A stretch of 64,000 nt of DNA, from assembly GCA_001507425.1 (NCBI GenBank), contig LMAJ01000002.1:124001-188000 (forward strand), in the 5' to 3' direction. The notes beneath the pieces are model-generated. The model did not search any database, was not told where the DNA came from, and saw only the letters and a list, made by a program, of their open reading frames with translations. The position numbers and the translations under genes were made by a program. Shown one piece after another: positions 27,962 to 43,678 of the stretch (the stretch's first letter is position 1; every line of letters starts with the position of its first letter). This DNA is from Flavobacteriaceae bacterium CRH (GTDB lineage Bacteria; Bacteroidota; Bacteroidia; Flavobacteriales; Flavobacteriaceae).

Positions 27962-30103
27962 TTATCTATAAAAACCCATTGATACTCCGCCGTCTACGTT
28001 TAGTGCGTTTCCTGTTGACTTACTCAACAATCCTCCTGTAAACGCAAAACACGCATTGGCAATATCATCAGGCAATATGATTTCGTTTAATAAGGTACGT
28101 TTGGCGTAGTATGCCGGTAATTCTGCTACCGTAATACCATACGCTTTGGCTCGTCCTTCTGCCCAGCCTCCAGACCAAATGTTGGAGTCTGAGATTACGG
28201 CATCTGGATTTACAGTATTTACACGGATTTTATCCGGTCCCAATTCTGCTGCCATCAGGCGTGTTAAATGTGCCTGTGCTGCTTTCGCTGATCCGTAACC
28301 TGGGTTGTTTGGCCCTGCAACAACAGCATTTTTCGATACGATGTTTACAATATCACCTCCAAATCCCTGTTTGCGCATTACTTCTATTCCGGCTTTTGAA
28401 ACAATAAATTGTCCTTTTACCAGAATGTCGTACAATCTGTCCCATTCTTCAAGGCTATGTTCCGCTATCGATTTTGAGATGCTAATTCCGGCATTGTTCA
28501 CAATAATATCAGCTCCACCAAAAGCCAAACAAGCCTGGTCTAATGCTTTTTCTGTACTTGCTTCGTTTGTTACATTTAGCAGTGTACTTGAAATCGCATC
28601 TTTTCCGAAGGTTTTAATAAAGTCGGCTGTTGCTTCTTCCAATCGTTCTTCGTTGATGTCATTTATCACGACACAAGCACCTTCCTGAGCAAATTTCTTG
28701 GCAATTGCTTTTCCTATTCCTCCGGCTGATCCGGTAATTATGGCAACTCTTCCTGAAAGTGCTTTTGGTTTTGGCATTCTTTGCAATTTAGCTTCTTCGA
28801 GTAACCAATATGCAATATCAAAAGCTTCCTGATGTGGAAGTGAAGTATATTCCGATACGGCTTCTGCACCTTTCATTACATTAACAGCATTCACATAATA
28901 TTCTGATGCCAGTCTTGCCATGGTTTTATCTTTGGCAAAAGTGAACATTCCAACTCCGGGATATAAAATTACCACAGGATTTGGGTCGCGCATTGCAGGT
29001 GAATTATCTTTTTTGCATTTGTTGTAATAATCCCTGTACATCGCTCTGTAGGCTTCAAAAGCAGGTTGCAATTTTGCTTTGATGGCATTTACATCTGATA
29101 AATCTTCGTTTGGATCAAGTTCTAAAACAAGCGGACTTATTTTAGTTCTTAAAAAGTGGTCCGGACAAGATGTTCCAAGTGGAGCCAGTTTTTCAAGATC
29201 ATTAGAATTGATGAATTCCAAAACTCTTTGATCATCCGTATAATGTCCAATCATCTGGCGCTCTGACGAGCAGAATCCTCTTAAAATTGGAGCTACTTTT
29301 GCTGCTTTTAGTTTTCTTGCTTCTTCAGGCAGGCTTTCTATTTTTTGTCCTCCAAAAACAGGACGTTTTTTTCCGTAGTTATTCTCCAGATATGTTGCAC
29401 ATTTCTCAATTACTTCAAGGGTATTGATGTAACTTTCGTATGCTGTATCGCCCCAGGTGAAAAGTCCGTGAGAACCCAACATGATGCCTTTTAGTTTTTT
29501 GCCTTTTTTTTCTGCTTCTTCCAAGCAAGATCTTAACTGAAGTCCCAAATCGAAACCCGGGCGCTGCCAGCCTACCCAGCCGATTTCGCCATCAAATAAT
29601 TCTTCGGTGATTTTTGCTCCGTCTTTGGCTGCTGCGATTGCAATGGCCGCATCGGGATGCAAATGGTCAATATGTTTGAAGGGTAAAAATCCGTGTAAAG
29701 GTGTGTCGATTGATGGCGCTTTTGAAGCCAGATCAAAAATACAATGGTTGAACAATTCTACCATTTCATCTTCGAATTCGATGCCTTTGTAAACGTTTTC
29801 AAGATTGCGTAATCGGTCTAAATACAATGCAGCACAACCTGATTTTGTTAATGTTCCGATATCACCTCCCGAACCTTTGATCCACATTACCTCTGAACTT
29901 GCTCCGGTTAACGGATCTTTATCAGTAATTTTTACCGAGGTGTTTCCGCCTCCGTAATTTGTTAATCGCAAATCGGCTCCAAGTAAATTAGAACGATAAA
30001 TGAAAAGCCCAACTTCATCTCCTGCCAATGCGGCCGCTTTAGACTCATCCCAAAGATAGCTTACATGCTTAAAATTCATATCTACAGTATTTTTATTCGA
30101 CAT
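27962..30103 (-). CDS. rhaEW: Bifunctional L-rhamnulose-1-phosphate aldolase / L-lactaldehyde dehydrogenase
   Basis: A 713-residue fusion. Residues about 1-430 form a class II aldolase domain with zinc-site histidines in DTPLHGFLPFKHIDHLHPDA and GSHGLFTWGD; it splits L-rhamnulose-1-phosphate into DHAP and L-lactaldehyde. Residues about 450-713 are a short-chain dehydrogenase: nucleotide loop ITGSAGGIGKAIA, NNAG, and catalytic Y-G-S-A-K, expected to oxidise lactaldehyde to lactate. This two-domain protein is known as RhaEW (YuxG type). Its product fits the lutABC genes downstream in the same cluster. Confidence 0.93.
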   Translation of the reverse strand: MSNKNTVDMNFKHVSYLWDESKAAALAGDEVGLFIYRSNLLGADLRLTNYGGGNTSVKITDKDPLTGASSEVMWIKGSGGDIGTLTKSGCAALYLDRLRNLENVYKGIEFEDEMVELFNHCIFDLASKAPSIDTPLHGFLPFKHIDHLHPDAAIAIAAAKDGAKITEELFDGEIGWVGWQRPGFDLGLQLRSCLEEAEKKGKKLKGIMLGSHGLFTWGDTAYESYINTLEVIEKCATYLENNYGKKRPVFGGQKIESLPEEARKLKAAKVAPILRGFCSSERQMIGHYTDDQRVLEFINSNDLEKLAPLGTSCPDHFLRTKISPLVLELDPNEDLSDVNAIKAKLQPAFEAYRAMYRDYYNKCKKDNSPAMRDPNPVVILYPGVGMFTFAKDKTMARLASEYYVNAVNVMKGAEAVSEYTSLPHQEAFDIAYWLLEEAKLQRMPKPKALSGRVAIITGSAGGIGKAIAKKFAQEGACVVINDINEERLEEATADFIKTFGKDAISSTLLNVTNEASTEKALDQACLAFGGADIIVNNAGISISKSIAEHSLEEWDRLYDILVKGQFIVSKAGIEVMRKQGFGGDIVNIVSKNAVVAGPNNPGYGSAKAAQAHLTRLMAAELGPDKIRVNTVNPDAVISDSNIWSGGWAEGRAKAYGITVAELPAYYAKRTLLNEIILPDDIANACFAFTGGLLSKSTGNALNVDGGVSMGFYR

Positions 30104-30165
30104 TTTTGATATTATATATTTGGTTGTCTATTGTGTACTTATAAATCCATTGAGCGCAATTAATT

Positions 30166-30303
30166 TTAACACATAGAAACATAGATTTTGTTAACTAAAA
30201 ATAGACGTTTCACTTGCATTAACAAACATAGCTATGTGTTAGAAACGAGTTTCTTTTAATATTCTTTTTCTAAAAAATAACATCTATGTTTCTATGTGTT
30301 AAA
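30166..30303. repeat. Dispersed intergenic element, copy 3 (inverted)
   Basis: Same terminal inverted repeats, TTAACACATAGAAACATAG and CTATGTTTCTATGTGTTAA. The inner block (GTTTCACTTGCATTAACAAACATAGC) is the reverse complement of that in copy 2, so this copy is inserted the other way round. It fills the rhaT-rhaEW gap. Confidence 0.8.
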
Positions 30304-30331
30304 CATTTTTCATGAACTTAACTCAACTAAT

Positions 30332-31381
30332 TTATAATGAATTTCCTATTCCGACTAAAACAATCGAAAACATAATCAGCCCAATTCCCCACAAAAAAGT
30401 ATTGAAGGTTTTTTTAGAAACTCCACTCCATTCTTTCAAATAAAATCCCCAGAAATTGGCAGTTAAAATGATAGTCGACATGTGCAGAATCCAGGAGCTG
30501 GCTCCGTTTCCTAGTTTACTTTCGCCCATTCCGTAAAAGAAAAATTGTAGAAACCACATGGTTCCGGCGAGCGCAGAAAAAAGGATGTTTTTTGTAATAG
30601 GTGTTTGTTTATTAGTATAATCGCTAAATGTTTTATTCTTAAAATTAAGATACAAACACCAAATAAAGTTCGTTGTAAGTCCGCCCCAAAGTAAAACGAT
30701 ATAAGTTACATTATTCTGAAAAAGCGGATTGCAACCTGATACTACGGCAGCTTCAGCCATAGGTTTTCCGGCTTCGATTCCATAATTAAAAAATGAACTT
30801 AAAATTCCTGATACTACCGCAATAATAAGTCCTTTTACCAGATTAAAATCTTTGTCTTTATTTTCGTGTCCTACTGCAAAATCTTTTTCTTTTAGAATTC
30901 CGGCTTTCCCTGAAATCGCAATTCCCAAAAGACAAACCGCAACACCTAGTAAAACTAATTGTCCTCCGGTGCTTTGAAGCATATCGGTAAAAGAAATTTT
31001 TCCTTCAGTTGGATGAAAATTATAATAAATAGAAGGAACTAAAGCTCCAAAAGCGGAACAAAAGCCCAGTACTATGGAATTTCCTAATGACATTCCTAAA
31101 TACCTAACGCCCAGCCCGTAAGTCAAACCTCCAATTCCCCAAATAAGTCCCATGGAGAAAGTAAAGGCTTTAATTGTAGGAGAAGCTGCAGCAATAATTT
31201 CTGCAAAATTCGGAATTGTTAAATAAGCAGCAATTGGCGGTACGATAAGCCAGGAAAAAAAACCTCCTACGAGCCAGTAGCTTTCCCAAGCCCAACTTTT
31301 AACTTTTTTGAATGGCATATAAAAACTCCCTGAAGAAAATCCTCCTATGGAGTGAAAAATAATTCCTAATAATGATTCCAT
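30332..31381 (-). CDS. rhaT: L-rhamnose/H+ symporter
   Basis: A 349-residue integral membrane permease with about ten hydrophobic spans, of the RhaT family in the drug/metabolite transporter superfamily. Family traits: SIGGFSSGSFYMPFKKVKSWAWESYWLVGG at the start, described here by its ends, WGIGGLTYGLGVRYLGMSLG in the middle and a glycine-rich C-terminal half. It takes up the L-rhamnose released by periplasmic enzymes. First gene of the minus-strand cluster, with the 18-bp operator-like motif 69 bp upstream of its start. Confidence 0.93.
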   Translation of the reverse strand: MESLLGIIFHSIGGFSSGSFYMPFKKVKSWAWESYWLVGGFFSWLIVPPIAAYLTIPNFAEIIAAASPTIKAFTFSMGLIWGIGGLTYGLGVRYLGMSLGNSIVLGFCSAFGALVPSIYYNFHPTEGKISFTDMLQSTGGQLVLLGVAVCLLGIAISGKAGILKEKDFAVGHENKDKDFNLVKGLIIAVVSGILSSFFNYGIEAGKPMAEAAVVSGCNPLFQNNVTYIVLLWGGLTTNFIWCLYLNFKNKTFSDYTNKQTPITKNILFSALAGTMWFLQFFFYGMGESKLGNGASSWILHMSTIILTANFWGFYLKEWSGVSKKTFNTFLWGIGLIMFSIVLVGIGNSL

Positions 31382-31449
31382 TTATAATTTATTTGTGGTT
31401 ATGCGATAGTTAATCTCGTTTTGTAAAATAAGAAAATGTAAAAAACAAA

Positions 31450-31467
31450 ACTATCCTGTACTATCCT
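31450..31467 (-). promoter_or_regulatory. Operator-like motif, rhaT copy
   Basis: On the rhaT sense strand the site reads AGGATAGTACAGGATAGT, the best match to the consensus shared with four other upstream regions and with 63897-63914. It lies in the region between divergent rhaT and the GntR regulator gene, so it could control both. A weak -7 (TATTTTAC, 31430-31423) lies 19 bp downstream in the rhaT direction. The remaining 31468-31746 is AT-rich with no other feature I can support. Confidence 0.65.
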
Positions 31468-31746
31468 TTAATTTATATGTTAAATACACCTGTTATTGCA
31501 AAGAAGAGTATCTTTAAATTGAAAAAATAAATTTAAAATTTCTATTTTAGCAATCGATTTCGCAATTACTAAAATCTCATTTATTTGATGAATAAAAAAT
31601 CAGATTAGAAATTCGGAAAGATAAAATAAGACTATTCTTGTTATTTAAATATCATTGTAACAGTCGTTTGTTAGCTCAAAACTATTTATAAAAATATAAT
31701 TTAAAATTGCGTTTTATAAAAGAATCGTAATTTGAAAAACAAAAAC

Positions 31747-32787
31747 ATGATCAAACTTATCAAGATAGATGAAGATTCAAGAGTTCCTAAATACAAACAA
31801 ATTGTAGACTCCATTTTGCAAAATATTGCCAACGGAAATTTGAAAATAAATCAAAAAATACCTTCTATTAACAGTTTTAGTGAAGAATTTTATATGTCAA
31901 GGGATACGGTAGAGAAAGCTTATAATATTTTAAAAGAGCGAAAAATAATTTCATCTATTCGAGGAAAAGGCTACTATATTACCCGCACAAAGCTTGAATC
32001 TAAAGTCAATATATTGTTTTTGTTTAATAAACTGAGTGCGTATAAAATGAAAACGTACAACTCATTTATTAATACCGTGGGCGCAAATGCTCATGTAGAT
32101 TTACATATCTATCATTGCGACGAAACCTTGTTTTTGAACCTATTAGACAAATTTGAGGGGGTTTACGATTATTATGTAATCACAACACACTTTAAGACAG
32201 ATGAACTGAAACATTTGAGTTTTACGGACGATGTTGTAAAAGCGATTCAAAGAATTCCGCAGGAAAAACTGGTTATCATGGATAATATTAAATTATCTAT
32301 GGAAGGCGAGGTTATCAAAATATATCAGGATTTTGAAAATGATATTTACAATGCCTTAAAGGAAGGAATTGCTAAAATATCTAAATACAAACGATTGATT
32401 TTAATCTATCCTGAAAAAGCGGTTTATCCTTATCCCAGAAGGATTTTGCACGGATTTAAAAAGTTTTGTGTGGAGCACGAAATTAATTTTGAGATTCTAA
32501 GCGAGGTTTATGATGATATGATTTTGAAAAAAGGCGATTTATTTATTACCATTGAAGAATCGGATCTGGTGAATTTAATGAAACAAATTCGCGATGAAGA
32601 GTATGTTTTGGGCAAAGATATTGGCGTGATTTCGTATAATGATACACCTCTGAAAGAACTTTTGGGAATAACCGTAATGTCAACGGATTTTAATGTTATG
32701 GGAGAAACTGCTGCGCGAATGATTCTGAATAAAGAAAAAGGATCGGTTAAAGTACCTTTTAATTTTATTGACAGGAATTCGATTTAG
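31747..32787 (+). CDS. GntR-family regulator with LacI-type sugar-sensing domain, candidate rhamnose/rhamnogalacturonan regulator
   Basis: 346 residues. Start taken at ATG 31747 (MIKLIKIDEDSRVPKYKQI) rather than the TTG five codons upstream. N-terminal winged helix typical of GntR (about 8-78): VDSILQNIANGNLKINQKIPSINSFS, MSRDTVEKAYNILKERKII and GKGYYI, here given as parts. The rest (about 85-346) is a periplasmic-binding-protein-like effector domain (DIGVISYNDTPLKELL, VMGETAARMI). Divergent from rhaT, so it probably senses rhamnose or an intermediate and binds the shared 18-bp motif. It is not an AraC-type RhaR/RhaS. Confidence 0.85.
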   Translation: MIKLIKIDEDSRVPKYKQIVDSILQNIANGNLKINQKIPSINSFSEEFYMSRDTVEKAYNILKERKIISSIRGKGYYITRTKLESKVNILFLFNKLSAYKMKTYNSFINTVGANAHVDLHIYHCDETLFLNLLDKFEGVYDYYVITTHFKTDELKHLSFTDDVVKAIQRIPQEKLVIMDNIKLSMEGEVIKIYQDFENDIYNALKEGIAKISKYKRLILIYPEKAVYPYPRRILHGFKKFCVEHEINFEILSEVYDDMILKKGDLFITIEESDLVNLMKQIRDEEYVLGKDIGVISYNDTPLKELLGITVMSTDFNVMGETAARMILNKEKGSVKVPFNFIDRNSI

Positions 32788-32995
32788 GAATTTGTGAAGT
32801 TATTGAATGCTGATTTCTTATCCTTTATAATTATTCTAAGGGATTCATCTGCTGTTAACTATATATAAAATTGAAGTTATTCCTGTTAATGTAGTGTAAA
32901 AATTCGATTAAACTACTCCAAATAATTTTCTAAAAACAGACCATTAAACTAATAATCAATTAGTTATTAAATTAATTATTCTGCATCAATATCTT

Positions 32996-33031
32996 TTGTA
33001 ACCTTATATCTAAAAATTATATTTAATTTTG
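32996..33031 (+). promoter_or_regulatory. Candidate promoter of the sensor-kinase/exopolysaccharide operon
   Basis: TAATTTTG (33024-33031) matches the -7 consensus TAnnTTTG and ends 19 bp before the hybrid kinase ATG. A TTTTG lies upstream at 32994-32998, with a spacing of 25 bp, a little longer than usual. Confidence 0.45.
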
Positions 33032-33050
33032 CAATTCACTTTTTGACAGA

Positions 33051-35039
33051 ATGAATAGTAAAGATCAACCCATACCACATAACGAAATACAGCGTCTTGC
33101 AGCACTAAAACGTTATAATATTCTTGACTCGCTTCCTGAGAATGCTTTTGATGATGCCACAAAACTCGTTTCTTATATTTGTGGCGTGCCCATTGCGCAT
33201 ATTTCCTTTATAGACGAGAACAGGCAATGGTTTAAATCTGAAATTGGAGTTGGCGTATCTGAAGTACCCAGAGAAATTACTTTCTGCAGATATGCTATTA
33301 TGGATACTGAAATGCTTGAAGTACCGGATACTCATTTAGACGATCGTTTTAAAGATGATGATAATGTTACAGGTGGTTATAAAGTAAGATTTTATGCTGG
33401 TGTTCCCCTTACAACACCTGATGGTTACAATATAGGAACTATTTGTGCTGTAGACCATGTTTCTAAAGAACTTAATGAAAATCAGAAGAATGCGCTTTCA
33501 ATTATTGCAAAGCACGTCATAAATCTATTAGAATTAAGAATTAAAAATATTGAACTAAATGTTCAGAAAAAAATTGCTGAACGCGCAATACATGCAAAAG
33601 ATAGTTTTCTTGCCAATATGAGCCATGAGATCAGAACACCTCTGAATGCTATTATTGGTTTTACAGACCTTCTTGCCCAAACAAAATTAGACACTAATCA
33701 AACTGATTATATTGATAGTGTACAAATTGCAGGAGAAAACCTGCTCCTTATCGTAAATGATATTCTGGATCTTTCTAAAATAGAATCAGGTAATTTAACT
33801 ATTGATGCTCAGCCATTCAATTTACAAAAAACACTTAAGCATATTTATAACCTGCTAAAGGTAAAAGTTTCTTCAGGTGTTGAATTTAATTTGTTTCTGG
33901 ATGCCGATTTGCCTGAAATGGTAATTGGCGATCACGGAAGACTAAATCAAATATTAGTTAACCTTACAGGTAATGCACTTAAATTTACTAAAGAAGGTGA
34001 AGTTACTGTTTCTGTAAAAAAAGTGGACGAAACTGATGATGAATATTCAATTCGGTTTTCAGTTAAAGATACCGGAATAGGCATACCCAACAACAAGCTT
34101 AAAACTATTTTTGACCGATTTACGCAAGCAGAAGAAAGCACTACGCGAAGATTTGGCGGTACTGGGCTTGGTCTTAGTATTGTAAAACAGCTTGTTGAAT
34201 TGCAAAAATCCGAAATTCACATAAAAAGCCAACAAGGACGAGGTTCTGAATTTTTCTTTGTACTTAATTATAAAAAAGCAAATCAAACGGAAACAGAGAT
34301 TAAAACAGTATCAGAAGAAAATTTAGGTAAACTAAAAATATTGCTTTGTGAAGACAATCTTTTAAATCAAAAACTCGTTAAAAGCGTTATTGATAATTTT
34401 GGATTTGAATTGGATATTGCTGAAAATGGTGAAACAGGAATAGCGCTTTTATCAAATAATAAATATGACCTGGTACTGATGGATCTTCAGATGCCTGTTA
34501 AAGACGGATACCAAACGACAGAATATATTAGGAATGAAATGAATTTAGCCATTCCTATTATTGCCATGACGGCACACTCACTTGCCGGCGAACAGGAACG
34601 CTGTTACAGTGTAGGAATGAATGCTTATGTGCCAAAACCTTTTAAGCAGGGAATGCTTTTAGAGGCAATAAAAAAAGTACTAAGCAAAGATATTCAGCTT
34701 GCGCAGAAGCGAAAACTGGATTTGTCTTATTTGGATGAAATGTCCTGTGGTGATGCAAAATTTAAACAGGAAATGATCGATATTTTTGTAGAGACAATTC
34801 CAAATCAGGCGGCTCAACTCGAAAAAGCTTTTCATGAGAATAACATTGAAAACGTTAAAAAATTGTCGCACCATATGAAATCAAGTTTAGATATATTTTT
34901 GCTTAATGACCTTTCTAACTCTTTATCTGTTGTAGAAGAAGAAGCTTATATTGGAGCATTTACTTCTGAAAGTGCGGATAAAATAAATATAATACATTGT
35001 GGGATCGTTGAAGTAGTTAAAATTTTGAAGGAGCTATGA
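33051..35039 (+). CDS. Cytoplasmic GAF hybrid histidine kinase with receiver and Hpt domains
   Basis: A 662-residue multi-step phosphorelay protein with no signal peptide or membrane span. Order: GAF domain (about 25-165; DENRQWFKSEIGV and FYAGVPLTTPDGYNIGTICAVD), HisKA (about 185-250; phospho-His in ANMSHEIRTPLNAIIGF), HATPase (about 295-410; NLTGNALKF, DTGIGIP, FGGTGLGLSIV), receiver (about 425-545; acceptor Asp in LVLMDLQMP, KPF) and C-terminal Hpt (about 560-660; HHMKSSLD). It therefore holds every relay station except the final receiver, which the next gene supplies. First gene of a five-gene unit. Confidence 0.93.
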   Translation: MNSKDQPIPHNEIQRLAALKRYNILDSLPENAFDDATKLVSYICGVPIAHISFIDENRQWFKSEIGVGVSEVPREITFCRYAIMDTEMLEVPDTHLDDRFKDDDNVTGGYKVRFYAGVPLTTPDGYNIGTICAVDHVSKELNENQKNALSIIAKHVINLLELRIKNIELNVQKKIAERAIHAKDSFLANMSHEIRTPLNAIIGFTDLLAQTKLDTNQTDYIDSVQIAGENLLLIVNDILDLSKIESGNLTIDAQPFNLQKTLKHIYNLLKVKVSSGVEFNLFLDADLPEMVIGDHGRLNQILVNLTGNALKFTKEGEVTVSVKKVDETDDEYSIRFSVKDTGIGIPNNKLKTIFDRFTQAEESTTRRFGGTGLGLSIVKQLVELQKSEIHIKSQQGRGSEFFFVLNYKKANQTETEIKTVSEENLGKLKILLCEDNLLNQKLVKSVIDNFGFELDIAENGETGIALLSNNKYDLVLMDLQMPVKDGYQTTEYIRNEMNLAIPIIAMTAHSLAGEQERCYSVGMNAYVPKPFKQGMLLEAIKKVLSKDIQLAQKRKLDLSYLDEMSCGDAKFKQEMIDIFVETIPNQAAQLEKAFHENNIENVKKLSHHMKSSLDIFLLNDLSNSLSVVEEEAYIGAFTSESADKINIIHCGIVEVVKILKEL

Positions 35040-35117
35040 TAAAACAAAAATTAAGTATAGCTTTACGATAATTACCAATGTTGTAAGATTATTTGCCCTA
35101 TACAAAAATTTAAACCA

Positions 35118-35483
35118 ATGAGAATAATTTTAGCAGAAGATAACGATATCCTACGCAAATCATTATCTTTTTTTTTAGAATCTAAAGGATTTACTGTTGA
35201 CCAATTTTCTGATGGTAAAGAAGCACTGGAAGCCATCGAAGCAAATAGCTACGACCTGATATTAACCGATATAAATATGCCCGGCATAAGCGGAATGGAA
35301 ATTACGCAGTATGTAAGACAAACCATTGGCTCTGATATTCCGATCATTATACTTACTTCTTCAGGAGTAGAACAAACCGAACTCGATTCTTTTGATATAG
35401 GTGCAAACGAATTTATTGCCAAACCTGTTAGTCCGAATGTGCTGTTGGTGAGAATTAATAAATTACTAAATACACGCGCTTAA
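35118..35483 (+). CDS. Single-domain response regulator
   Basis: 121 residues, one receiver domain only: acidic AEDND at the N-terminus, phosphoacceptor Asp in LILTDINMPGISG, Thr in ILTSSG, Lys in AKPVSPN. There is no output domain, so it should act by protein contact. It follows the Hpt-containing kinase and overlaps the YaiO gene by one base (TAATG), so it is a good candidate for the terminal receiver that controls the synthase encoded downstream. Confidence 0.93.
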   Translation: MRIILAEDNDILRKSLSFFLESKGFTVDQFSDGKEALEAIEANSYDLILTDINMPGISGMEITQYVRQTIGSDIPIIILTSSGVEQTELDSFDIGANEFIAKPVSPNVLLVRINKLLNTRA

Positions 35484-36700
35484 TGAAGTTTCTATATTAT
35501 ACTATTTTCTTACTGTTCATCTCTCACACTGTATTGGGGCAGGAAATTAATTTTGATGCAGCAATGTCTGAGGCAAAGCAGGAAGTTGAAAAAGGGAATT
35601 ACGATAAAGCATTATCAATTCTTGAACCTTTAAGCGTTAAGTTTCCTGAGAATGAAGATGTAAAAATTTATACTGGGCGTATATACAGCTGGAAAAAAGA
35701 TTATAATACGGCTATAAAAATTCTTTCACCAATGGCAGACAGGGCAAATCCTGATGCTGAAGCTTTGCTAGCCATAATTAATGTATACTTTTGGTCTGAA
35801 CAATTTGACAAATGCATTTTTTATTGTGACAAGTATCTGGTTATTAATCCTAATTCTACTGATGTAATACTCATTAAGGCCAATTGCCTCGAAAAACTGG
35901 GCCGTGATAAAGAAGCATTAGAAACAGTCGAAAAAATATCCCTAACAGAAAACAATACTCAGGCAATTACAGGCCTCAGAACACTTATTGGGCGTAAGGT
36001 AAAAAATGCAATAGCCGTTTCATACCTAAATGTTTCTACCTCCAGTCCGGGACAGTCGCCATTACATTATGGATATGTTGAATATTCTCATAAGTTTACC
36101 AAGTCAGCACTTGTAGGACGTGCCAATGTGGGATATGCAAACAACGACACGCAAATGTTATTTGAAGCCGATTATTATCAAACATTTTCAAAAAGAAATT
36201 ATTTATATGTTAATGCCGGCGTATCTACAGGACAAACTATATTTCCTGTTGCAAAGGCAGGTGTAGAATATTATTTTACTCCCTATAAAAGATTCGATTA
36301 TTCTCTTGGCCTAAAGTATATGCATTTTGAAACAGAAGATGTAACATTGCTTACCGGACAATTATCGTATAGAATTGGAACTACTCATACCCTCGCCTAC
36401 AGACCTTTTTATGATACAGGCAACGAACTGTTTTCTCATGTTTTAAGTCTACAAACTACAAATGAGGAAAAAGAAAGTTTACTACGATTAGAACTTCAAT
36501 ACGGAAATGTTCCATACCTCTATCTTTACAACAACTTTACTCAGCCTTTAAAGGCTTACAGAGTAGGTTTACAATACCAGCAACGTATTGGAAAGTCATT
36601 TTTTATAAGACCTATTTTCTTATACGAGTATGAAGAATATTTACCTGAACAATACAGAAACCGATTTAACGCTCAAATAATTATTACTATACGCTTTTAA
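35483..36700 (+). CDS. TPR + YaiO-type outer-membrane beta-barrel protein
   Basis: 405 residues. Signal peptide ending VLGQ (about 20). TPR-like helical repeats (about 25-170: GNYDKALSILEPLSVKFPENEDVKIYTGR, described by its ends; later INPNSTDVILIKANCLEKLG), then a YaiO-family beta-barrel (about 175-405: GQSPLHYGYVEYSHKF, AGVEYYF, ending NAQIIITIRF). The mix of periplasmic TPR and barrel is like the AlgK/AlgE or PgaA export proteins for exopolysaccharides, so it probably forms the outer-membrane exit. It sits between the receiver and the anchor and GT2 genes in one operon. Confidence 0.85.
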   Translation: MKFLYYTIFLLFISHTVLGQEINFDAAMSEAKQEVEKGNYDKALSILEPLSVKFPENEDVKIYTGRIYSWKKDYNTAIKILSPMADRANPDAEALLAIINVYFWSEQFDKCIFYCDKYLVINPNSTDVILIKANCLEKLGRDKEALETVEKISLTENNTQAITGLRTLIGRKVKNAIAVSYLNVSTSSPGQSPLHYGYVEYSHKFTKSALVGRANVGYANNDTQMLFEADYYQTFSKRNYLYVNAGVSTGQTIFPVAKAGVEYYFTPYKRFDYSLGLKYMHFETEDVTLLTGQLSYRIGTTHTLAYRPFYDTGNELFSHVLSLQTTNEEKESLLRLELQYGNVPYLYLYNNFTQPLKAYRVGLQYQQRIGKSFFIRPIFLYEYEEYLPEQYRNRFNAQIIITIRF

Positions 36701-36702
36701 AT

Positions 36703-37524
36703 ATGAGAAAGCTATGGGAACTTTACAAAAGTGGTGTTTGGGTAGAGCCTTTTCTGACGCTGTCTATAATCTTGTTTATAACCACATCAATAATTTTGTA
36801 TTTGTTGATTATCAGAAGCCGCAGCAAGAATATCAGAAATGAAAGACTTCGCATAGAATATGGTAATGTTATTGAAAAATTAATGTTCTCGATTGTTTTT
36901 GAGGATATCCCTTTTTCTACAACTAGCCAAAATCCGGAATATGTGAGACTTTCTAAAACAACCTTTTTTAGAGAAGTTTTAATGGAATCTATTATTAACC
37001 TTCATAAAAACTACGAAGGTGTTCACGCACAAAAGCTTGAAGAATTTTATAAAGAATCCGGGTTAATAAATGACTCCCTTAAAAAACTCAAGAACCTGAA
37101 ATGGGAATTAAAATGTAAAGGAATTACCGAACTTGCCGAACTCAATATTACTGACGCATTCAAGAGCATAATAAAAGTTTCTAAAGGGCGAAATAAAACC
37201 TTAAAAATCACAGCCTTAAATGCCGGCATCAAGCTTGCGGGAACAAAAGGAATAATACATCTTACAAAACACACTCATCCTATTGATGACTGGACACAAA
37301 TAAATATTATAAACGCTTTTAAAAAACATGATATAGGAGATACTGAAGGTGTAGAACTTTTGCTGGAATCTCAAAATACAACTGTTGTTACACTAGGACT
37401 CAAACTTATAAAAGAACTAAAGCTTACTCAAAAAATTCCTTACATCACACAATTAGTTAACAGAGCTCCAAATACGCTGATTAAATATGAGGCACAAAAT
37501 GTATTGCAGTTATTAACAGTTTAA
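36703..37524 (+). CDS. Membrane-anchored HEAT-like repeat protein
   Basis: 273 residues, begins 2 bp after the YaiO gene. One N-terminal span (about 16-38, FLTLSIILFITTSIILYLLII), then a basic juxtamembrane stretch and an all-alpha cytoplasmic domain. Its C-terminal half shows HEAT/armadillo-like periodicity (LKITALNAGIKLAGTKGI, INAFKKHDIGDTEGVELLLES, TVVTLGLKLIKELK). No catalytic motif. In this operon it could be the scaffold linking the receiver to the glycosyltransferase, an inference with no direct proof. Confidence 0.75.
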   Translation: MRKLWELYKSGVWVEPFLTLSIILFITTSIILYLLIIRSRSKNIRNERLRIEYGNVIEKLMFSIVFEDIPFSTTSQNPEYVRLSKTTFFREVLMESIINLHKNYEGVHAQKLEEFYKESGLINDSLKKLKNLKWELKCKGITELAELNITDAFKSIIKVSKGRNKTLKITALNAGIKLAGTKGIIHLTKHTHPIDDWTQINIINAFKKHDIGDTEGVELLLESQNTTVVTLGLKLIKELKLTQKIPYITQLVNRAPNTLIKYEAQNVLQLLTV

Positions 37525-37536
37525 ACAATATTGGCA

Positions 37537-38967
37537 ATGACTTTTTTTAATACTGAAATAACTTTATTCACTCACATCTATCTAATTCTTATACTTGGTT
37601 ATGCGATATTAATTATGTCGTCGTATCTTATATTGGCCCATCTTTCTACAAGAGCACTAAGAGAATATCTTAAAAAAAACAGTTTTGTAGATTATAATGT
37701 GTTGCTTACAAGTCAGTTTGCACCTAAACTTTCCCTAATTGCACCTGCTTATAATGAAGCCTTTACGATTGAAGAAAATGTGAAATCTTTACTTTCCCTG
37801 AATTATAACAATTACGATGTAATTCTTGTAAACGACGGCAGTAAAGACAATTCAATGGAAATCCTCATTAAAACCTATGATCTTGTTTTAACGGAACTTG
37901 ATATTCTTCCAAAAATTAAGACAAAAAAAATTAAAGGTATTTACACCTCCAGAAATGCCGCTTATAAAAAATTAATCGTTGTTGACAAAGAAAATGGCGG
38001 CAAAGCCGATGCCCTTAATGTTGGTCTTAATATTGCTCAACATCCTTATGTGGTATGCATTGACGTTGATTGTATTTTGGATAAAGACTCACTTCTTAAA
38101 CTAGCGAAACCTTTTCTCGAATCGCACGGAAAGCGTATTATTGCCACGGGCGGTGTCGTAAGAATAGCCAACCAGTGTATCATTAAGAACGGACGTTTGG
38201 TCGAAGTAAATATCCCGGATCTTATGTTGCCAAGAATACAGGTTTTAGAATACCTAAGAGCGTTTCTTTTAGGAAGAATGGCTTGGGGCAGACTTGATGG
38301 ATTATTGTTAATTAGCGGCGCGTTTGGTGCATTTGATAAAGAAATAGCTTTACTCGCAGGTGGTTACGACACAAAAACAGTAGGTGAAGACATGGAATTG
38401 GTAGTGAGAATGCGTCGTTACATGCTGGAAAACAAAATTCCTTATGCCATTAGTTATATTCCTGACCCGCTTTGCTGGACCGAAGCACCGGAAGATTTTA
38501 AAATTTTCAAAAAACAACGCAGTCGTTGGATGAGAGGAACTATTGAAACCCTGAGCCTTCACAAAAAAATGTTCTTAAATCCTAAATATAAGCTATTAGG
38601 AATGCTTAGTATACCATATTGGACTTTGTTTGAATTCCTGGCACCCGGCATAGAATTTATTGGTATTGCAATTACAGTTGTATTTTTTGTTTTCGGATTA
38701 ATTCACTGGCATTTTTTCTTTTTGCTTTTGCTTTTTGTTTACTTTTTTGCTGTTTTGTTTTCCGTAATTGCGCTGTATAGTGAAGAACGCACGTACCACA
38801 AATATCCCAAACAAGCCGATTTTTTCAAGCTTCTTTTGGCCGCTTTCATAGAGCCTTTTTATTTCCATCCAATGGCGGTATATGCTGCTTTAGTTGGTTA
38901 CAAAGAAAAAATCATGGGAACCAAAGGCTGGGGCGAAATGACAAGAAAAGGTTTTACGAAGAAATAA
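37537..38967 (+). CDS. Processive GT2 glycosyltransferase, exopolysaccharide synthase
   Basis: 476 residues, start at ATG 37537 (a TTG lies two codons upstream). N-terminal span (about 12-33), a GT2 domain (about 60-330) and a cluster of C-terminal spans (about 345-435). Synthase motifs: APAYNEA, VNDGSKDNS, DVDC (DxD), GEDMEL (ED) and QRSRW (QxxRW). QxxRW with flanking spans marks a processive enzyme such as PgaC or cellulose/hyaluronan synthases. The product sugar cannot be read off. It completes the sensor-to-polymer operon, 12 bp after the HEAT gene. Confidence 0.9.
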   Translation: MTFFNTEITLFTHIYLILILGYAILIMSSYLILAHLSTRALREYLKKNSFVDYNVLLTSQFAPKLSLIAPAYNEAFTIEENVKSLLSLNYNNYDVILVNDGSKDNSMEILIKTYDLVLTELDILPKIKTKKIKGIYTSRNAAYKKLIVVDKENGGKADALNVGLNIAQHPYVVCIDVDCILDKDSLLKLAKPFLESHGKRIIATGGVVRIANQCIIKNGRLVEVNIPDLMLPRIQVLEYLRAFLLGRMAWGRLDGLLLISGAFGAFDKEIALLAGGYDTKTVGEDMELVVRMRRYMLENKIPYAISYIPDPLCWTEAPEDFKIFKKQRSRWMRGTIETLSLHKKMFLNPKYKLLGMLSIPYWTLFEFLAPGIEFIGIAITVVFFVFGLIHWHFFFLLLLFVYFFAVLFSVIALYSEERTYHKYPKQADFFKLLLAAFIEPFYFHPMAVYAALVGYKEKIMGTKGWGEMTRKGFTKK

Positions 38968-39008
38968 TTGTATTGCCCAAATTAAGAAATAATATTTTCC
39001 ATTTGTAA

Positions 39009-39362
39009 TTATTTATCACAAAAATATTCCACAGGAAACAAACCCGTAGGATTCACTTTAAGAATTTTGCTGTACTTTCCCATCATATTTTTTTTGTAAA
39101 CATACATGTATTTCGAATAACTTTTCTTGTGTAACAAATCTCCTGCTTTCACTCCCTGCCTGTCCGAAATAATATAATTCCAAAACCTTATTTTCTTTTT
39201 GTTATTATAAAGAATCAGCTTGTTGGTAGGGCTAACTTCTATTTTTGTTATCACAAAATTATAATTTGCCTTACATTCGATATAAGATTGGATGAAATTA
39301 TTCAATAAAATACATAAAACGAAGCCACTAAAAACCAAAACCGGTATATTTTTCTTTTTCAT
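39009..39362 (-). CDS. Small membrane-anchored hypothetical protein, 117 aa
   Basis: Unrecognised. N-terminal KKK followed by a hydrophobic span (about 8-27) acts as uncleaved anchor or signal. The remaining 90 residues are basic and Tyr-rich with beta-like stretches (NYNFVITKIEVSP, KLILYNNKKKIRFWNYI). Similar short anchored proteins are common in Flavobacterium without known role. Convergent with the GT2 gene (41 bp apart). Confidence 0.6.
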   Translation of the reverse strand: MKKKNIPVLVFSGFVLCILLNNFIQSYIECKANYNFVITKIEVSPTNKLILYNNKKKIRFWNYIISDRQGVKAGDLLHKKSYSKYMYVYKKNMMGKYSKILKVNPTGLFPVEYFCDK

Positions 39363-39487
39363 GGCAGCGGATCATTTTTTAAAAGAGAACTAATGAATTT
39401 GTAACCTAACAAATATACACAAGTTGATCTACGGTTTTTCAGATTTAAAAAAAGTATTGTTTCTTAAAAGAATATATCTTTTGTACC

Positions 39488-41341
39488 TCACTCTCTTTGC
39501 ACCTTTACTAAAACAATATTCGGTTTTGGCGCTGGTTCCATATCCTTTCCCATATAAAAACTCGTATGTGGAGGCTGATTATAACCAACATTTTGCCATG
39601 CAATACTGAGCCTATATTGCGGATCGTGCATTAAAGTATATTGTCTGATTTCGGTTGGAATTGTAGTGGAGTAAATCCTCAATTCTTTATTATCTTCAGA
39701 TCTTAAAATCAGTTCTTCTCTCCAGTCACCCAGAATATCTGCAGAAAGTGCCGGTGTAGATTTTGTGCCATTATTTGATGCTGCTCCGGTTGCCGTAAAC
39801 AATCTGCCTTGATTGTATTTATCAATATAATTTGAATTTAAAAGTTCTCGTGAAGAGTCCCCATCCCAATAAATTAAAAAATTAGTTGATGTTGGCGCTT
39901 TTCCAATTTTATTTCCCTTAATATCATGCAAATCAGGAGATCCTGACCACCAACATTGCGCGCCTTTTCTACTCGGATCTATATTATCTGCCACACCCCG
40001 ACCCACATCTTCATTAAGAGAATCGGTGAATAAAACTTTTCCGTCGGCTGCTGAAAATAATGTTACGCCCGGGCCTTTTGTTCCGTTTTCTATTTCATGA
40101 ATTCCAAAAACTTCCAAACCCGGAATATCAGGATCAAGATCAGAAACATGCAAGGCATCACCATGCCTAAAACCGGTTGTGTACAGACCTTTTCCATCAT
40201 CGTTGACGCACATAGAACCGTAGATAATTTCATCTTTTCCGTCGTTATCAACATCCGCAACCGTAAGTCCATGATTTCCCATTCCAGAGTATGGATTTTC
40301 AGCATCTTTACTGTCAAAGATCCATCTTGAAGTGAGTTTGTTATTTTTAAAATCCCATGCCGCTAAAACCGTTCTTCCGTAATAACCACGACACATTATT
40401 ACGCTCGGATGAATTCCATCTAAATACGCAATACAAGCTGTAAAGCGATCTATTCTGTTTCCTTTGGTATCATTTCCTCCGCTTCCACCTCTTCCGCCCC
40501 AGCCTGCGAGATCTCCTCGTTCAGGAATGTAATCGACAGTTGTTATTACTTTACCGGTTCTTCCGTCAAAAACAGAAAGATATTCAGGGCCTTTTAGAAT
40601 TTTACCAAACACAGGAGAATCCGGATCTCGATCTACCCAATCTTTTGAGGCATCTCCAACAACATTATTTTGACTATCAATTGTTCCGTCAGCCGTTTTG
40701 CAGACAAATTCAGCAATACCGTCACCATCTAAATCATACACCATAAACTGCGTGTAATGTGCGCCTTCGCGGATGTTCTTTCCGAGATTAATCTGCCACA
40801 AAAACTTCCCTTCTAAAGTATAAGCCTGAAATATAGGCGGATCTGTAATTCCTTTAAAAGAATTATCAAGACTTTTTCCTGTCATATGAACAATCAAATC
40901 GTATTTTCCGTCTCCATCTAAATCACCGACAGAAAGATCATTCGGAATATAGCCTTCGATTTCCTTCAGTTTAATCGACACATAATCTTTATCCTGACTT
41001 TGAGCAGCAATTGTAAAGCTTCCTTGCGTAACCTGTTCTTTTCCTTTTAAAACCGTTTTTACAAACCACGTATTTTCTTCATTCGCAATTGCTTTGCTGT
41101 CAAGAAAATTAGCGGCACCAAGAATGGGTTTATCATTCAATTTGATTGCTTTTTTCGTACCGCTTTTTCTGTATAAATTAAAACCCAAATCATCAGGATC
41201 AGTTCCTAAAACACGCCATCCAATAAAAAAATATCCTTTGTCTTTTATAGCGATTATGCCTCGGTCTAAGTTTTCCATTTGTCTTTGCGCGAAAATGGAA
41301 TAGGAGAAAAATAAGAGCAGGAATAAAATTCTATTTTTCAT
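39488..41341 (-). CDS. PL11 rhamnogalacturonan lyase
   Basis: 617 residues with signal peptide ending IFAQ (about 19). PL11 beta-propeller lyase that cuts the rhamnogalacturonan-I backbone between rhamnose and galacturonic acid by beta-elimination, leaving unsaturated ends. Family signs: RQMENLDRGIIAIKDKGYFFIGWRVLGTD at the start, described by its ends, then repeated Ca-binding-like DGDGKYD, DLDGDG and DVDNDGKDE turns along the propeller, and VVGDASKDWVDRDPDSP-type loops. It sits downstream of two large hydrolase genes on the same strand and anchors the assignment of this PUL to rhamnogalacturonan-I. Confidence 0.92.
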   Translation of the reverse strand: MKNRILFLLLFFSYSIFAQRQMENLDRGIIAIKDKGYFFIGWRVLGTDPDDLGFNLYRKSGTKKAIKLNDKPILGAANFLDSKAIANEENTWFVKTVLKGKEQVTQGSFTIAAQSQDKDYVSIKLKEIEGYIPNDLSVGDLDGDGKYDLIVHMTGKSLDNSFKGITDPPIFQAYTLEGKFLWQINLGKNIREGAHYTQFMVYDLDGDGIAEFVCKTADGTIDSQNNVVGDASKDWVDRDPDSPVFGKILKGPEYLSVFDGRTGKVITTVDYIPERGDLAGWGGRGGSGGNDTKGNRIDRFTACIAYLDGIHPSVIMCRGYYGRTVLAAWDFKNNKLTSRWIFDSKDAENPYSGMGNHGLTVADVDNDGKDEIIYGSMCVNDDGKGLYTTGFRHGDALHVSDLDPDIPGLEVFGIHEIENGTKGPGVTLFSAADGKVLFTDSLNEDVGRGVADNIDPSRKGAQCWWSGSPDLHDIKGNKIGKAPTSTNFLIYWDGDSSRELLNSNYIDKYNQGRLFTATGAASNNGTKSTPALSADILGDWREELILRSEDNKELRIYSTTIPTEIRQYTLMHDPQYRLSIAWQNVGYNQPPHTSFYMGKDMEPAPKPNIVLVKVQRE

Positions 41342-41419
41342 AATTGCTTTTTTATGTTGAATTGTAATGGAACGCTGATGACGCTGATTTTGGAGGCTTT
41401 TTTGTTTTTTTTTGCAATC

Positions 41420-41521
41420 TTGTCATCCTGAGGAACGAAGGATCACACAAGAAACTCCGCAAACAAAATCGCCAATCTTTGTCGAGTTACGTGTGTGATC
41501 CTTCGTTCCTCAGGATGACAA
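41420..41521. repeat. ~100-bp palindromic intergenic element, copy 4
   Basis: TTGTCATCCTGAGGAACGAAG and its inverted copy flank CGCCAATCTTTGTCGAGTTACG. It lies between the PL11 and 708-aa hydrolase genes. Its arms use the GAGGAACGAAG variant. Confidence 0.8.
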
Positions 41522-41551
41522 ACTAGACGTTTCATTCTAATGACCAAAAAT

Positions 41552-43678
41552 TTAAAACATCTTCTTAAACCCCTCACTTTGTACTTTCCATGTTCCGTCT
41601 TTTGGGAAGCCCGGATTTTCATCTGTCGATCCGTCCCAACCGCCGCACATCATGGCAACCGCCGTTAACAATCCGCCGTTTCCGGGAAGATAAAGCGTTA
41701 ATCTTTCTGCCTGATAATTATGTCCGTTTTTTAAATACGTGTTTGTAGTAACATTCATAAATAAGGCATCAATTGCTTTTTCCGGCATTTGCAAACGTGC
41801 CGCGGACATGGCTGTCATCGGGAAATCCCAACCCCAGGTTTTATCCCAAGACCAGGTTTTCCAAACCAGATCAAACGTATTTTTCATGATTTTTTTATCT
41901 AAAAGCGATGTTTCAGGCAACATCCCAAAAGTTCCTAGTACCGATGGATGATCGGTTTTGAATTCCGGATTGGTATACGAATCTGTGGCGCTTTCTGTTG
42001 CCAGATACACATTATTTGCAACTGGTAACGGAGATAATTTAGCCAAAACGGTTTCCCATTTTTCAGGCACTTTTTGGTTTAATTTTTTCTTCCATGAAAT
42101 TGCGGTTTTCAAAGCCCAATTCCAATACGCTAATTCATAAGTCGGGTTAAAAGTTTCCATCGCCTTAAAGCGTTCTTGCGCCGGAATTACTCCGGGTCCC
42201 AAAACATAACGGTCGTTTTTGGCATCATAATTGGCAAACGAAGCCATAAAATCAGCCGTTGCAAAAACGCGCTCGCTGTATAAATTTAAAGTTTTATTTG
42301 TTGGATTTGCCCTGTACATTAATTCAGCATAAGTTATAAAATGCGGTTGTTGCCAAATCAAAAAAGAGCCTACAGATGAAGGACTTTCATTTCCATCAGT
42401 ATCAGTCATTTTTTGCCATCTTGCGCCTTCAAAACCCTGCCTTTTGGCTATTTTTTTTGCTTTATCAAAAACTTTTTGATACCACGGAAGGCTTTTCTCT
42501 AATAATTCCGGTCTGTTCCATAATGCGAAATGAACGCCATGCCACCAATGCATTTCTAAATGCGGTTTTCCGTACCAACTGTTATACGTTAAGCCTGTTT
42601 CCTGCGGAGGAACTTTCCCTGTACATTGTACTTTAGTCAAATATTGCGACAGAATTACTCTTCGTTCTAATTCCTTAGCGCGCGGGTCTGTACTTCCTGA
42701 AAAATCTACGGCAGCCCCACTTTTCCAGAATTGCTCCCAGCCTTTTATACTGCTGTTTTCAATTTCTGTAAAAGAAGAATTAGTTATTTTTTTATCTGCT
42801 AAAGCAAAAAGACAACTTAATTCTAAAGTATTTGTATTCAATGCTTCAACCACAAAATAATGATCTCCAGTCTTTTTAATTTGCGCATTTCCTTTCCAGT
42901 TTAAATTGACGTTATAAGAAATGCTATCCATTACATGTGTTACAATTACCTCTGTTTTAGACTTTTCTAAAAGCGTACTTTTATAATCCTGTTTTCCTTC
43001 CCATTTTGTTCCCATATCTGACCAGTCTCCTGTTGGAAACGGAATTCTCAAACTAATTTTTAAACGTTTCTGTAGCAATAAATCTGATTTTACTTTTACC
43101 CCGATCGCATCTTTTTCCTGATGTGAAACTGTGAAAACGGTTACCGGAATTCCTTCTACTTCAAAAGAACTTTCAATTTCTCCCGTCCATAAATTTAATT
43201 TTTGAGCAATCGATTTAATGTCTTCCGGTTTTGCAGCGCTCCCGTCTTTTTTGGTAATTTCAAAACCTAAATTTCCTAATTGCAATAAATGCGGATTTTG
43301 TCTTAACCAGTTTACCGCTTCCACTTTTCTGGCGGGCTCTTTTATTTGAACCGTGTATGAAATGTCTCTTCCGTACTGCTTGTAATCTCGTAATGTTTCT
43401 GAGAATTTATAATTGTTCGTGTTTTTATAGCTGTCCCAACCCCATTCTGACTGTGTTCCAAGCGGAATTCCATTTTCATATTTTTTGGGAAAAGTTTGTA
43501 ATCCGGTAGCATCAACGGTAAAAGCAAAAGCACCATTTCCAACAGTCAAAGATGCCAAAGTATCTATCGCTGAAATTTGAACATTGTGCCTCGTTACCAA
43601 TGCTTTTCGATCTATTTTTTGTTGCGCCAATACTGAAAACGAGAATAGAATTGCAATAATTAATTGATATTTTTTCAT
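41552..43678 (-). CDS. Secreted (alpha/alpha)6-barrel-type hydrolase, family not assigned, 708 aa
   Basis: Signal peptide MKKYQLIIAILFSFSVLAQQ. The N-terminal 300 residues look like a large beta-sandwich (LVTRHNVQISAIDTLASLTVGNGAFAF, described by ends; GIPVTVFTVSHQEKDAIGVKV). The C-terminal 380 look like a six-hairpin (alpha/alpha)6 barrel with HWWHGVHFALWNRPELLEKSLPWY, GARWQKMTD, SFLIWQQPHFITYAELMYR and WSWDKTWGWDFPMTAMSAARL. This layout is shared by GH65/GH95-type glycosidases. Acidic candidates near GARWQ and WGWDFP could be catalytic. Placed between PL11 and DUF4450 genes, it likely trims rhamnogalacturonan oligosaccharides. The exact bond is unknown. Confidence 0.8.
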   Translation of the reverse strand: MKKYQLIIAILFSFSVLAQQKIDRKALVTRHNVQISAIDTLASLTVGNGAFAFTVDATGLQTFPKKYENGIPLGTQSEWGWDSYKNTNNYKFSETLRDYKQYGRDISYTVQIKEPARKVEAVNWLRQNPHLLQLGNLGFEITKKDGSAAKPEDIKSIAQKLNLWTGEIESSFEVEGIPVTVFTVSHQEKDAIGVKVKSDLLLQKRLKISLRIPFPTGDWSDMGTKWEGKQDYKSTLLEKSKTEVIVTHVMDSISYNVNLNWKGNAQIKKTGDHYFVVEALNTNTLELSCLFALADKKITNSSFTEIENSSIKGWEQFWKSGAAVDFSGSTDPRAKELERRVILSQYLTKVQCTGKVPPQETGLTYNSWYGKPHLEMHWWHGVHFALWNRPELLEKSLPWYQKVFDKAKKIAKRQGFEGARWQKMTDTDGNESPSSVGSFLIWQQPHFITYAELMYRANPTNKTLNLYSERVFATADFMASFANYDAKNDRYVLGPGVIPAQERFKAMETFNPTYELAYWNWALKTAISWKKKLNQKVPEKWETVLAKLSPLPVANNVYLATESATDSYTNPEFKTDHPSVLGTFGMLPETSLLDKKIMKNTFDLVWKTWSWDKTWGWDFPMTAMSAARLQMPEKAIDALFMNVTTNTYLKNGHNYQAERLTLYLPGNGGLLTAVAMMCGGWDGSTDENPGFPKDGTWKVQSEGFKKMF

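Follow-up and report, generated by a model that had tools for sequence, protein, structure and literature searches.

A predicted exopolysaccharide synthase operon of a Flavobacteriaceae bacterium with a paired HEAT-type protein and a probable phosphorelay switch

We analyzed a stretch of 64,000 nucleotides from Flavobacteriaceae bacterium CRH (contig LMAJ01000002.1, positions 124,001 to 188,000 of the forward strand; hereafter the window, in whose numbering positions are given). In the list of its open reading frames (ORFs), five successive plus-strand genes encode a hybrid histidine kinase (HK), a lone receiver (REC), a TPR-YaiO protein, a HEAT protein, and a family 2 glycosyltransferase (GT2) with a QxxRW motif. 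This GT2 probably has a dedicated, membrane-anchored HEAT subunit, which is probably switched by the phosphorylated receiver; the switching, the signal, and the polymer we infer. The five genes are as follows.

33051–35039, plus strand: hybrid HK of 662 amino acids with the order GAF-HisKA-HATPase-REC-Hpt, the putative input end of the relay
35118–35483, plus strand: lone receiver REC of 121 amino acids without an output domain
35483–36700, plus strand: protein of 405 amino acids with TPR and a YaiO outer-membrane beta-barrel, a probable export porin
36703–37524, plus strand: membrane-anchored HEAT-type alpha-solenoid protein of 273 amino acids, the proposed regulatory subunit of the synthase
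37537 (ATG) or 37531 (TTG)–38967, plus strand: processive-type membrane GT2 with D, DxD, GED, and QxxRW motifs, the predicted exopolysaccharide synthase

The kinase and REC genes are separated by 78 bp, the REC and YaiO genes overlap by 1 bp, and the intervals before the HEAT and GT2 genes are 2 bp and 12 bp, the latter counted from the ATG. The ORF list and the domain scans confirmed the five-gene set and the spacings reported in a preliminary description of this DNA.

In the kinase, HisKA, HATPase_c, and REC each exceeded their Pfam cut-offs. Hpt scored 21.6 bits against a cut-off of 24.6 in the whole protein and 25.7 bits when the last 100 residues were scanned alone, and GAF, unlisted in the whole-protein scan, scored 43.1 bits (cut-off 22.4) for the N-terminus alone, which also matched PDB entry 4zmu with an E-value of 1.9e-27. 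The domain order proposed in the preliminary description is therefore borne out, with GAF and Hpt passing the cut-off on scans of the ends only. A simple scan found no hydrophobic or transmembrane segment in the kinase, and the protein is thus probably cytoplasmic. In the lone REC, an acidic pair ending in D8, together with D51 and K102, is invariant among 19 homologs, and the Pfam scan detected no output domain, as had been described. A phosphorelay chain of HisKA, REC, Hpt, and REC is present, and its phospho-residues appear intact.

The third protein matched YaiO with 123.2 bits (cut-off 23.9) and TPR above the cut-off, and its N-terminus resembles a signal peptide when the sequence is read by eye. 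No NfrA_C match was found in it at E ≤ 0.05. The operon encodes two features of synthase-dependent exopolysaccharide systems, namely this TPR and outer-membrane beta-barrel export protein and a processive membrane GT2 with the D, DxD, xED, and QxxRW motifs. The GT2 residues invariant in 17 homologs are N99, D100, G101, and S102 (NDGS), D176-x-D178, G283-E284-D285, and Q327, R328, R330, and W331 (QR-x-RW), and hydrophobic segments span residues 7–29 and 364–416. Its best NCBIfam match was PgaC_IcaA (TIGR03937) with 130.7 bits, which does not reach the cut-off of 422.3. Among the best 80 of 444 relatives in a named collection, the nearest GT2s (86–90% identity) belong to Flavobacterium species, which makes a Flavobacterium the most likely host.

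The window HEAT protein itself matched no Pfam or NCBIfam family. Its homologs adjoining the same GT2 family exceed the HEAT_2 cut-off, and its AlphaFold2 model, built from a 42-row alignment, is a helical solenoid following a long N-terminal helix (mean predicted local distance difference test score (pLDDT) 89.7, predicted template modeling score (pTM) 0.78). A Foldseek search with the model retrieved HEAT/armadillo-type repeats, among them designed armadillo and alphaRep-type proteins; only a single match reached E ≤ 0.001, and the template modeling score was about 0.3. There is one hydrophobic segment, at residues 12–40, and the basic residues that a reading of the sequence shows after this anchor suggest that the solenoid is cytoplasmic. 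The HEAT_2 matches of the homologs, the hydrophobic segment, and the helical model together bear out the membrane-anchored HEAT-like protein of the preliminary description.

The HEAT and GT2 genes were found to be paired well beyond the window. An initial search with the HEAT protein of the window detected homologs in 25 of 60 relatives, and in the 20 neighborhoods drawn every HEAT gene adjoins a GT2 of the window type. With HEAT alone as the query against 392 Bacteroidota genomes, 81 genomes gave a match, including weak matches perhaps outside the family, and the GT2 lies directly 3' of 63 of 65 HEAT genes on the same strand, many of the pairs overlapping by a few bases. The 65 loci leave out six narrow ones (L125, L144, L145, L147, L148, and L150), for which wider versions were used, and include the window as well as G018, G040, and G053, whose HEAT proteins were in the seed alignment. 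Three of the 61 HEAT genes in wide loci are not followed by a GT2: an 81-residue HEAT fragment in L036, the gene in L165, where no GT2 was found, and that in L169, a long HEAT protein that is probably unrelated. The L036 fragment (L036:5920-6162) lies upstream of a REC-HEAT-GT2 set and is perhaps the remnant of a duplicated HEAT gene. In L170–L174 (Flavobacteriaceae), the HEAT protein, located between REC and GT2, is enlarged to 635–931 residues by a long C-terminal extension; no domain beyond HEAT_2 was found in the related copy of L144.

The converse search gave the same picture. Among the best 80 of the 444 GT2 relatives in the named collection, 74 have HEAT immediately upstream and three have it fused to the GT2 (77/80), and the other three GT2s start at contig ends. 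Eight of the 77 HEAT assignments came from a re-check with a profile whose training set included members of these 80 loci, and those of L074 (E 8.6e-4) and L098 are weak and partial, respectively. By their record labels, these loci span about ten phyla, the taxa being Bacteroidota, Bdellovibrio, Paenibacillus, Neobacillus, Clostridium, Myxococcota, Terriglobia, Gemmatimonadetes, Elusimicrobia, Spirochaetales, Balneolaceae, Neomarinimicrobiota, Lysobacter, and alphaproteobacteria; metagenome bins, with phylum labels that may be wrong, account for all three fusions and for many of the non-Bacteroidota records, and the non-Bacteroidota isolate records are those of Bdellovibrio, Paenibacillus, Neobacillus, and Lysobacter. 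As a control, the PgaC_IcaA model was used to collect 30 GT2 loci from relatives (family members above 700 bits, others at most 216 bits). HEAT, sought with profile A1 only and in short flanks, was upstream of all five family members and of none of the 25 other GT2s, one of which (L207) is in the host genome itself. A HEAT gene directly upstream of a PgaC-like GT2 thus serves as a marker, with which the system was detected in about ten phyla. The preliminary description had staked its reading on conserved gene order, and the HEAT-GT2 order proved to be conserved (63/65 and 77/80 loci), more widely than had been supposed, with a lone or C-terminal REC as the usual additional partner.

In three loci (L111, L112, and L122), HEAT and GT2 form one protein of 949–980 residues in gene order, with HEAT profile E-values of 4e-14, 2.5e-8, and 1.3e-5, respectively. 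The pairing is thus physical, at least in these three fusions. A model of the L122 fusion (pLDDT 83.2, pTM 0.73; 29 alignment rows, only three of which cover HEAT) places in order the anchor helix, the solenoid, two helices, the GT-A domain, and the membrane helices. The GT2 half of this model could be aligned with an archaeal mannosyltransferase (Z 29.1 over 339 residues), with the hyaluronan synthase of Chlorella virus (Z 27.9 over 393 residues), and with BcsA of E. coli (Z 25.5 over 379 residues); it resembles hyaluronan and cellulose synthases with Z of 25 to 28, the BcsA alignments ranging from 21 to 25.5.

The receiver gene is the third recurrent partner. In 45 of the 65 loci a kinase-free REC gene precedes HEAT by one or two genes, and in 51 one lies between −4 and +5; six of the 14 REC-less loci are narrow. 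At least five genes away, kinase-free REC was found in 3 of 395 genes, from which about 7% per locus is expected over the nine positions. In the wide loci, a kinase-free REC of at most 160 residues is present between −3 and +5 in 52 of 61. In the GT2-first set, 42 of 54 Bacteroidota loci and 16 of the 26 remaining loci have a same-strand REC no more than five genes from the GT2. In a tree that combines 87 HEAT-linked RECs with 31 further REC domains, three label changes were needed, compared with a shuffled mean of 27.6 and with none of 500 shuffles as low; its support is modest, and the background domains come from one genome, the host. The HEAT-linked RECs across Bacteroidota are for the most part a coherent subfamily.

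These counts bear on the possibility that this is an ordinary exopolysaccharide operon, in which a transcriptional two-component system has its DNA-binding partner elsewhere and the co-location reflects shared regulation. Hybrid kinases and lone RECs are indeed common, and the host has 74 REC matches at E ≤ 1e-6. The background of 3 in 395 genes, however, makes chance neighbors unlikely, the lone REC has no output domain, and the three fusions show a physical pairing, at least there. We regard this explanation as improbable.

The main rival starts from the difference in strictness between the two associations. Since HEAT-GT2 pairing (63/65) is stricter than the REC link (51/65), HEAT may be a constitutive subunit that serves the assembly or stability of the GT2, in a role like that of PgaD or BcsB, with REC acting elsewhere as a shuttle, a sink, or the partner of an unlinked regulator, and with the relay controlling expression or another process. 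The REC-less loci, which keep HEAT-GT2 and amount to about a quarter, would be explained more easily in this way. On the other hand, the subfamily coherence of the linked RECs is not expected from it, nor are the REC genes that adjoin HEAT-GT2 in the 16 non-Bacteroidota loci, often with REC at the C-terminus and nothing after it. We consider a constitutive HEAT subunit rather unlikely, although it is the explanation to be taken most seriously beside a receiver-switched one.

Outside Bacteroidota, REC often forms the C-terminal end of a larger protein, as in Paenibacillus L099 (Hpt-REC-GGDEF-REC), Myxococcota L100 (REC-GGDEF-REC), and Clostridium L112 (ODP-GGDEF-REC). None of the six multi-domain partners ending in REC keeps the GG[DE]EF motif, which makes cyclase activity unlikely; those in L104, L111, and L122 were judged GGDEF-like by eye. 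Two partners of the fusions (L112:4307-6349 and L111:4903-6540) combine an ODP-type metallo-beta-lactamase fold, called by Pfam for L112 and by eye for L111, with a degenerate GGDEF and REC, and perhaps receive an oxygen-type input. Large proteins are also encoded upstream of HEAT-GT2 in the Paenibacillus and Neobacillus loci (L104:4537-6750, L105, L107, and L101:1492-6760), and the 738-residue protein in L104 gave no Pfam match even at E 1.

The genes around HEAT-GT2 differ among the loci. The window and L026–L030 have the order HK-REC-YaiO-HEAT-GT2. In L031, L033, and L035, HK-REC-HEAT-GT2 is fused to an LtaS-like sulfatase-fold protein and YaiO is on the opposite strand. L034, L036, and L038–L041 have REC-HEAT-GT2 followed by LtaS-like/TPR and YaiO genes, with no adjoining kinase, and in other loci a second GT2 is accompanied by a long TPR-YaiO protein. 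Against models of lipoteichoic acid synthase and phosphoglycerol transferase, the LtaS-like proteins score far under the cut-off, making a phospho-group on the polymer possible in these relatives; the window operon has no LtaS-like gene. HEAT-GT2 is thus the constant element. What varies is the set of polymer-handling genes and the input module, in which the kinase may be of different types and REC may stand alone or end a larger protein.

Because YaiO lies between REC and HEAT in the window and near HEAT in 51 of the 61 wide loci, the receiver might instead regulate the YaiO export step or another envelope component, with HEAT as the scaffold of a trans-envelope complex. YaiO, however, has no cytoplasmic part that REC could contact, and outside Bacteroidota only 5 of 26 loci have it close to the GT2, as compared with 16 of 26 for REC. 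This is the least probable of the explanations that we considered.

Enzyme-level control of secreted polysaccharides is best known through cyclic di-GMP (c-di-GMP). Many Bacteroidota have little or no c-di-GMP, which raises the question of how they switch such enzymes. The window GT2 showed no PilZ or MshEN match at E ≤ 0.05, and the host genome (5.83 Mb, 99.99% complete) contains no match to GGDEF (PF00990) or PilZ (PF07238), so that no diguanylate cyclase was detected in it; the genome-wide search covered GGDEF and PilZ, and MshEN was looked for in the GT2 only. Of 31 genomes searched, one has GGDEF and none has PilZ; the same search of 14 well-known genomes as controls found GGDEF in eight and PilZ in five. 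The single GGDEF match among the 31 (L195) is in a same-genus genome (G004). The absence of PilZ pointed out in the preliminary description holds, therefore, and extends to the host genome. The usual enzyme-level control is thus not copied here, and another switch is more likely.

We propose, with a probability of roughly 0.6, that the five genes specify a synthase-dependent exopolysaccharide machine under the control of a phosphorelay and not of c-di-GMP. The cytoplasmic GAF kinase would sense a signal and relay phosphate, by way of its internal REC and Hpt domains, to the lone REC, which in the phosphorylated state would bind the HEAT protein on its cytoplasmic solenoid. The latter would be held beside the GT2 by its one N-terminal helix, and receiver binding would open or block the active site or channel of the GT2. 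The GT2 would polymerize a nucleotide-sugar and extrude the chain through the inner membrane, and the TPR-YaiO protein would guide it over the periplasm and the outer membrane. The conserved domains argue for the phosphorelay chemistry, the pairing and the fusions for the HEAT-GT2 link, and adjacency, the coherence of the REC subfamily, and the lack of another output domain for the REC-HEAT link.

Several observations weigh against this proposal. REC docking on HEAT and post-translational control are what we infer from the sequences, and HEAT solenoids bind many things. The L122 model carries no inter-domain error values, so the HEAT-GT2 interface cannot be judged from it. No same-strand REC is near the GT2 in 12 of the 54 Bacteroidota loci and 10 of the 26 others among the best 80, and nine of the 61 wide loci have none between −3 and +5; REC may not be required everywhere, as about a quarter of the loci show none nearby. 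The HEAT-linked RECs are not one clade, 9 of 87 falling among the other RECs of the host. A kinase was recognized near HEAT in only 22 of the 61 wide loci, and the "self-contained phosphorelay" of the preliminary description, whose gene order and lack of PilZ otherwise stood, applies only to the window layout. No phenotype was found in the available parts of the open-licence literature.

A wider reading, which we offer tentatively and would not yet bet on, is that HEAT may be a general regulatory subunit of a distinct multi-phylum GT2 clade, on which phospho-receivers would act as c-di-GMP does on PilZ or MshEN, the barest form occurring in Bacteroidota devoid of c-di-GMP. In either case, the module offers a concrete candidate answer to how synthases are switched in c-di-GMP-poor Bacteroidota, and it points to an unannotated partner, the HEAT subunit, whose window copy matches no family. 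If the proposal is true, biofilm, capsule, or phage-receptor polysaccharides in such bacteria could be controlled via one phosphosite.

The module would be a signal-tuned synthase with an outer-membrane exporter, by analogy with PgaCD, BcsA, and NfrB; it falls below the PgaC cut-off and has no PilZ, MshEN, or NfrA_C. It shares with PgaABCD and IcaADBC the PgaC-type processive GT2 as the best match, the outer-membrane TPR-barrel exporter, and the single small operon, but the score of its GT2 is far from the 422.3-bit cut-off, it has no deacetylase, and it has HEAT and REC in place of PgaD, which takes part in c-di-GMP control. The Bcs cellulose synthase is similar in that BcsA aligns with the GT2 half of L122 and that some relatives carry a phospho-group transferase-like protein, comparable to BcsG of the cellulose system; it differs in that PilZ is absent from the window GT2 and the host genome. 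In the Syp system of Vibrio fischeri, a phosphorelay also acts on polysaccharide production after transcription via non-DNA-binding proteins, but these are SypE and SypA (PP2C/STAS), not HEAT, and the locus is of the Wzx/Wzy type.

E. coli NfrBA is described as consisting of a GT2 synthase and a TPR outer-membrane protein and as signal-controlled at the enzyme level (PMC8669469; see also PMC8669472 for NfrB). NfrBA shares these two components with the window operon, but NfrB carries MshEN and binds c-di-GMP, and there is neither HEAT nor REC. NfrA has the NfrA_C domain and gave no YaiO match at E ≤ 0.01, the reverse of the window protein, and the profile hidden Markov models of the window families do not match NfrA or NfrB.

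Other leads, including known gliding or glycosylation loci, were set aside on the accessible portions of the respective papers: FpgA, a 319-residue GT2 in another context (PMC4293000); Pep25/Lbp26, polysaccharide export and Wzz-type proteins (PMC9950754); EmbRS, which uses a LuxR-type regulator (PMC3684757); remFGHI, dropped after PMC5682007; and mutations affecting Tenacibaculum iridescence, to which no link was found (PMC12521978). No description of a HEAT-GT2 or REC-HEAT-GT2 synthase was found in the portions of the open-licence literature covered, which does not imply absence from print.

Upstream of the operon, one further element was noted.

33024–33031, plus strand: TAATTTTG, resembling the Bacteroidota −7 box consensus, 19 bp 5' of the kinase ATG; a weak candidate

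Similar words occur 0.77 times per kb per strand across the window. No Rfam family reached the gathering score in 31300–39600, and the counts of terminator-like and sigma-70-like sequences showed no clear excess over shuffled sequence. A small ORF of 117 residues without a Pfam match (39009–39362, minus strand) converges on the end of the GT2 gene. The operon is embedded in a rhamnose/pectin utilization region (27962–31381 and 39488–43678 on the minus strand, 31732–32787 on the plus strand), in which Pfam identified a RhaT transporter, a GntR regulator with a periplasmic-binding-like domain, and a rhamnogalacturonan lyase family 11 protein. The neighboring GntR gene (31732–32787) was rejected as a regulator of the operon, being located opposite the RhaT-type transporter among the rhamnose/pectin genes. 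The same region also encodes a 713-residue aldolase/dehydrogenase-like protein, named from its sequence alone.

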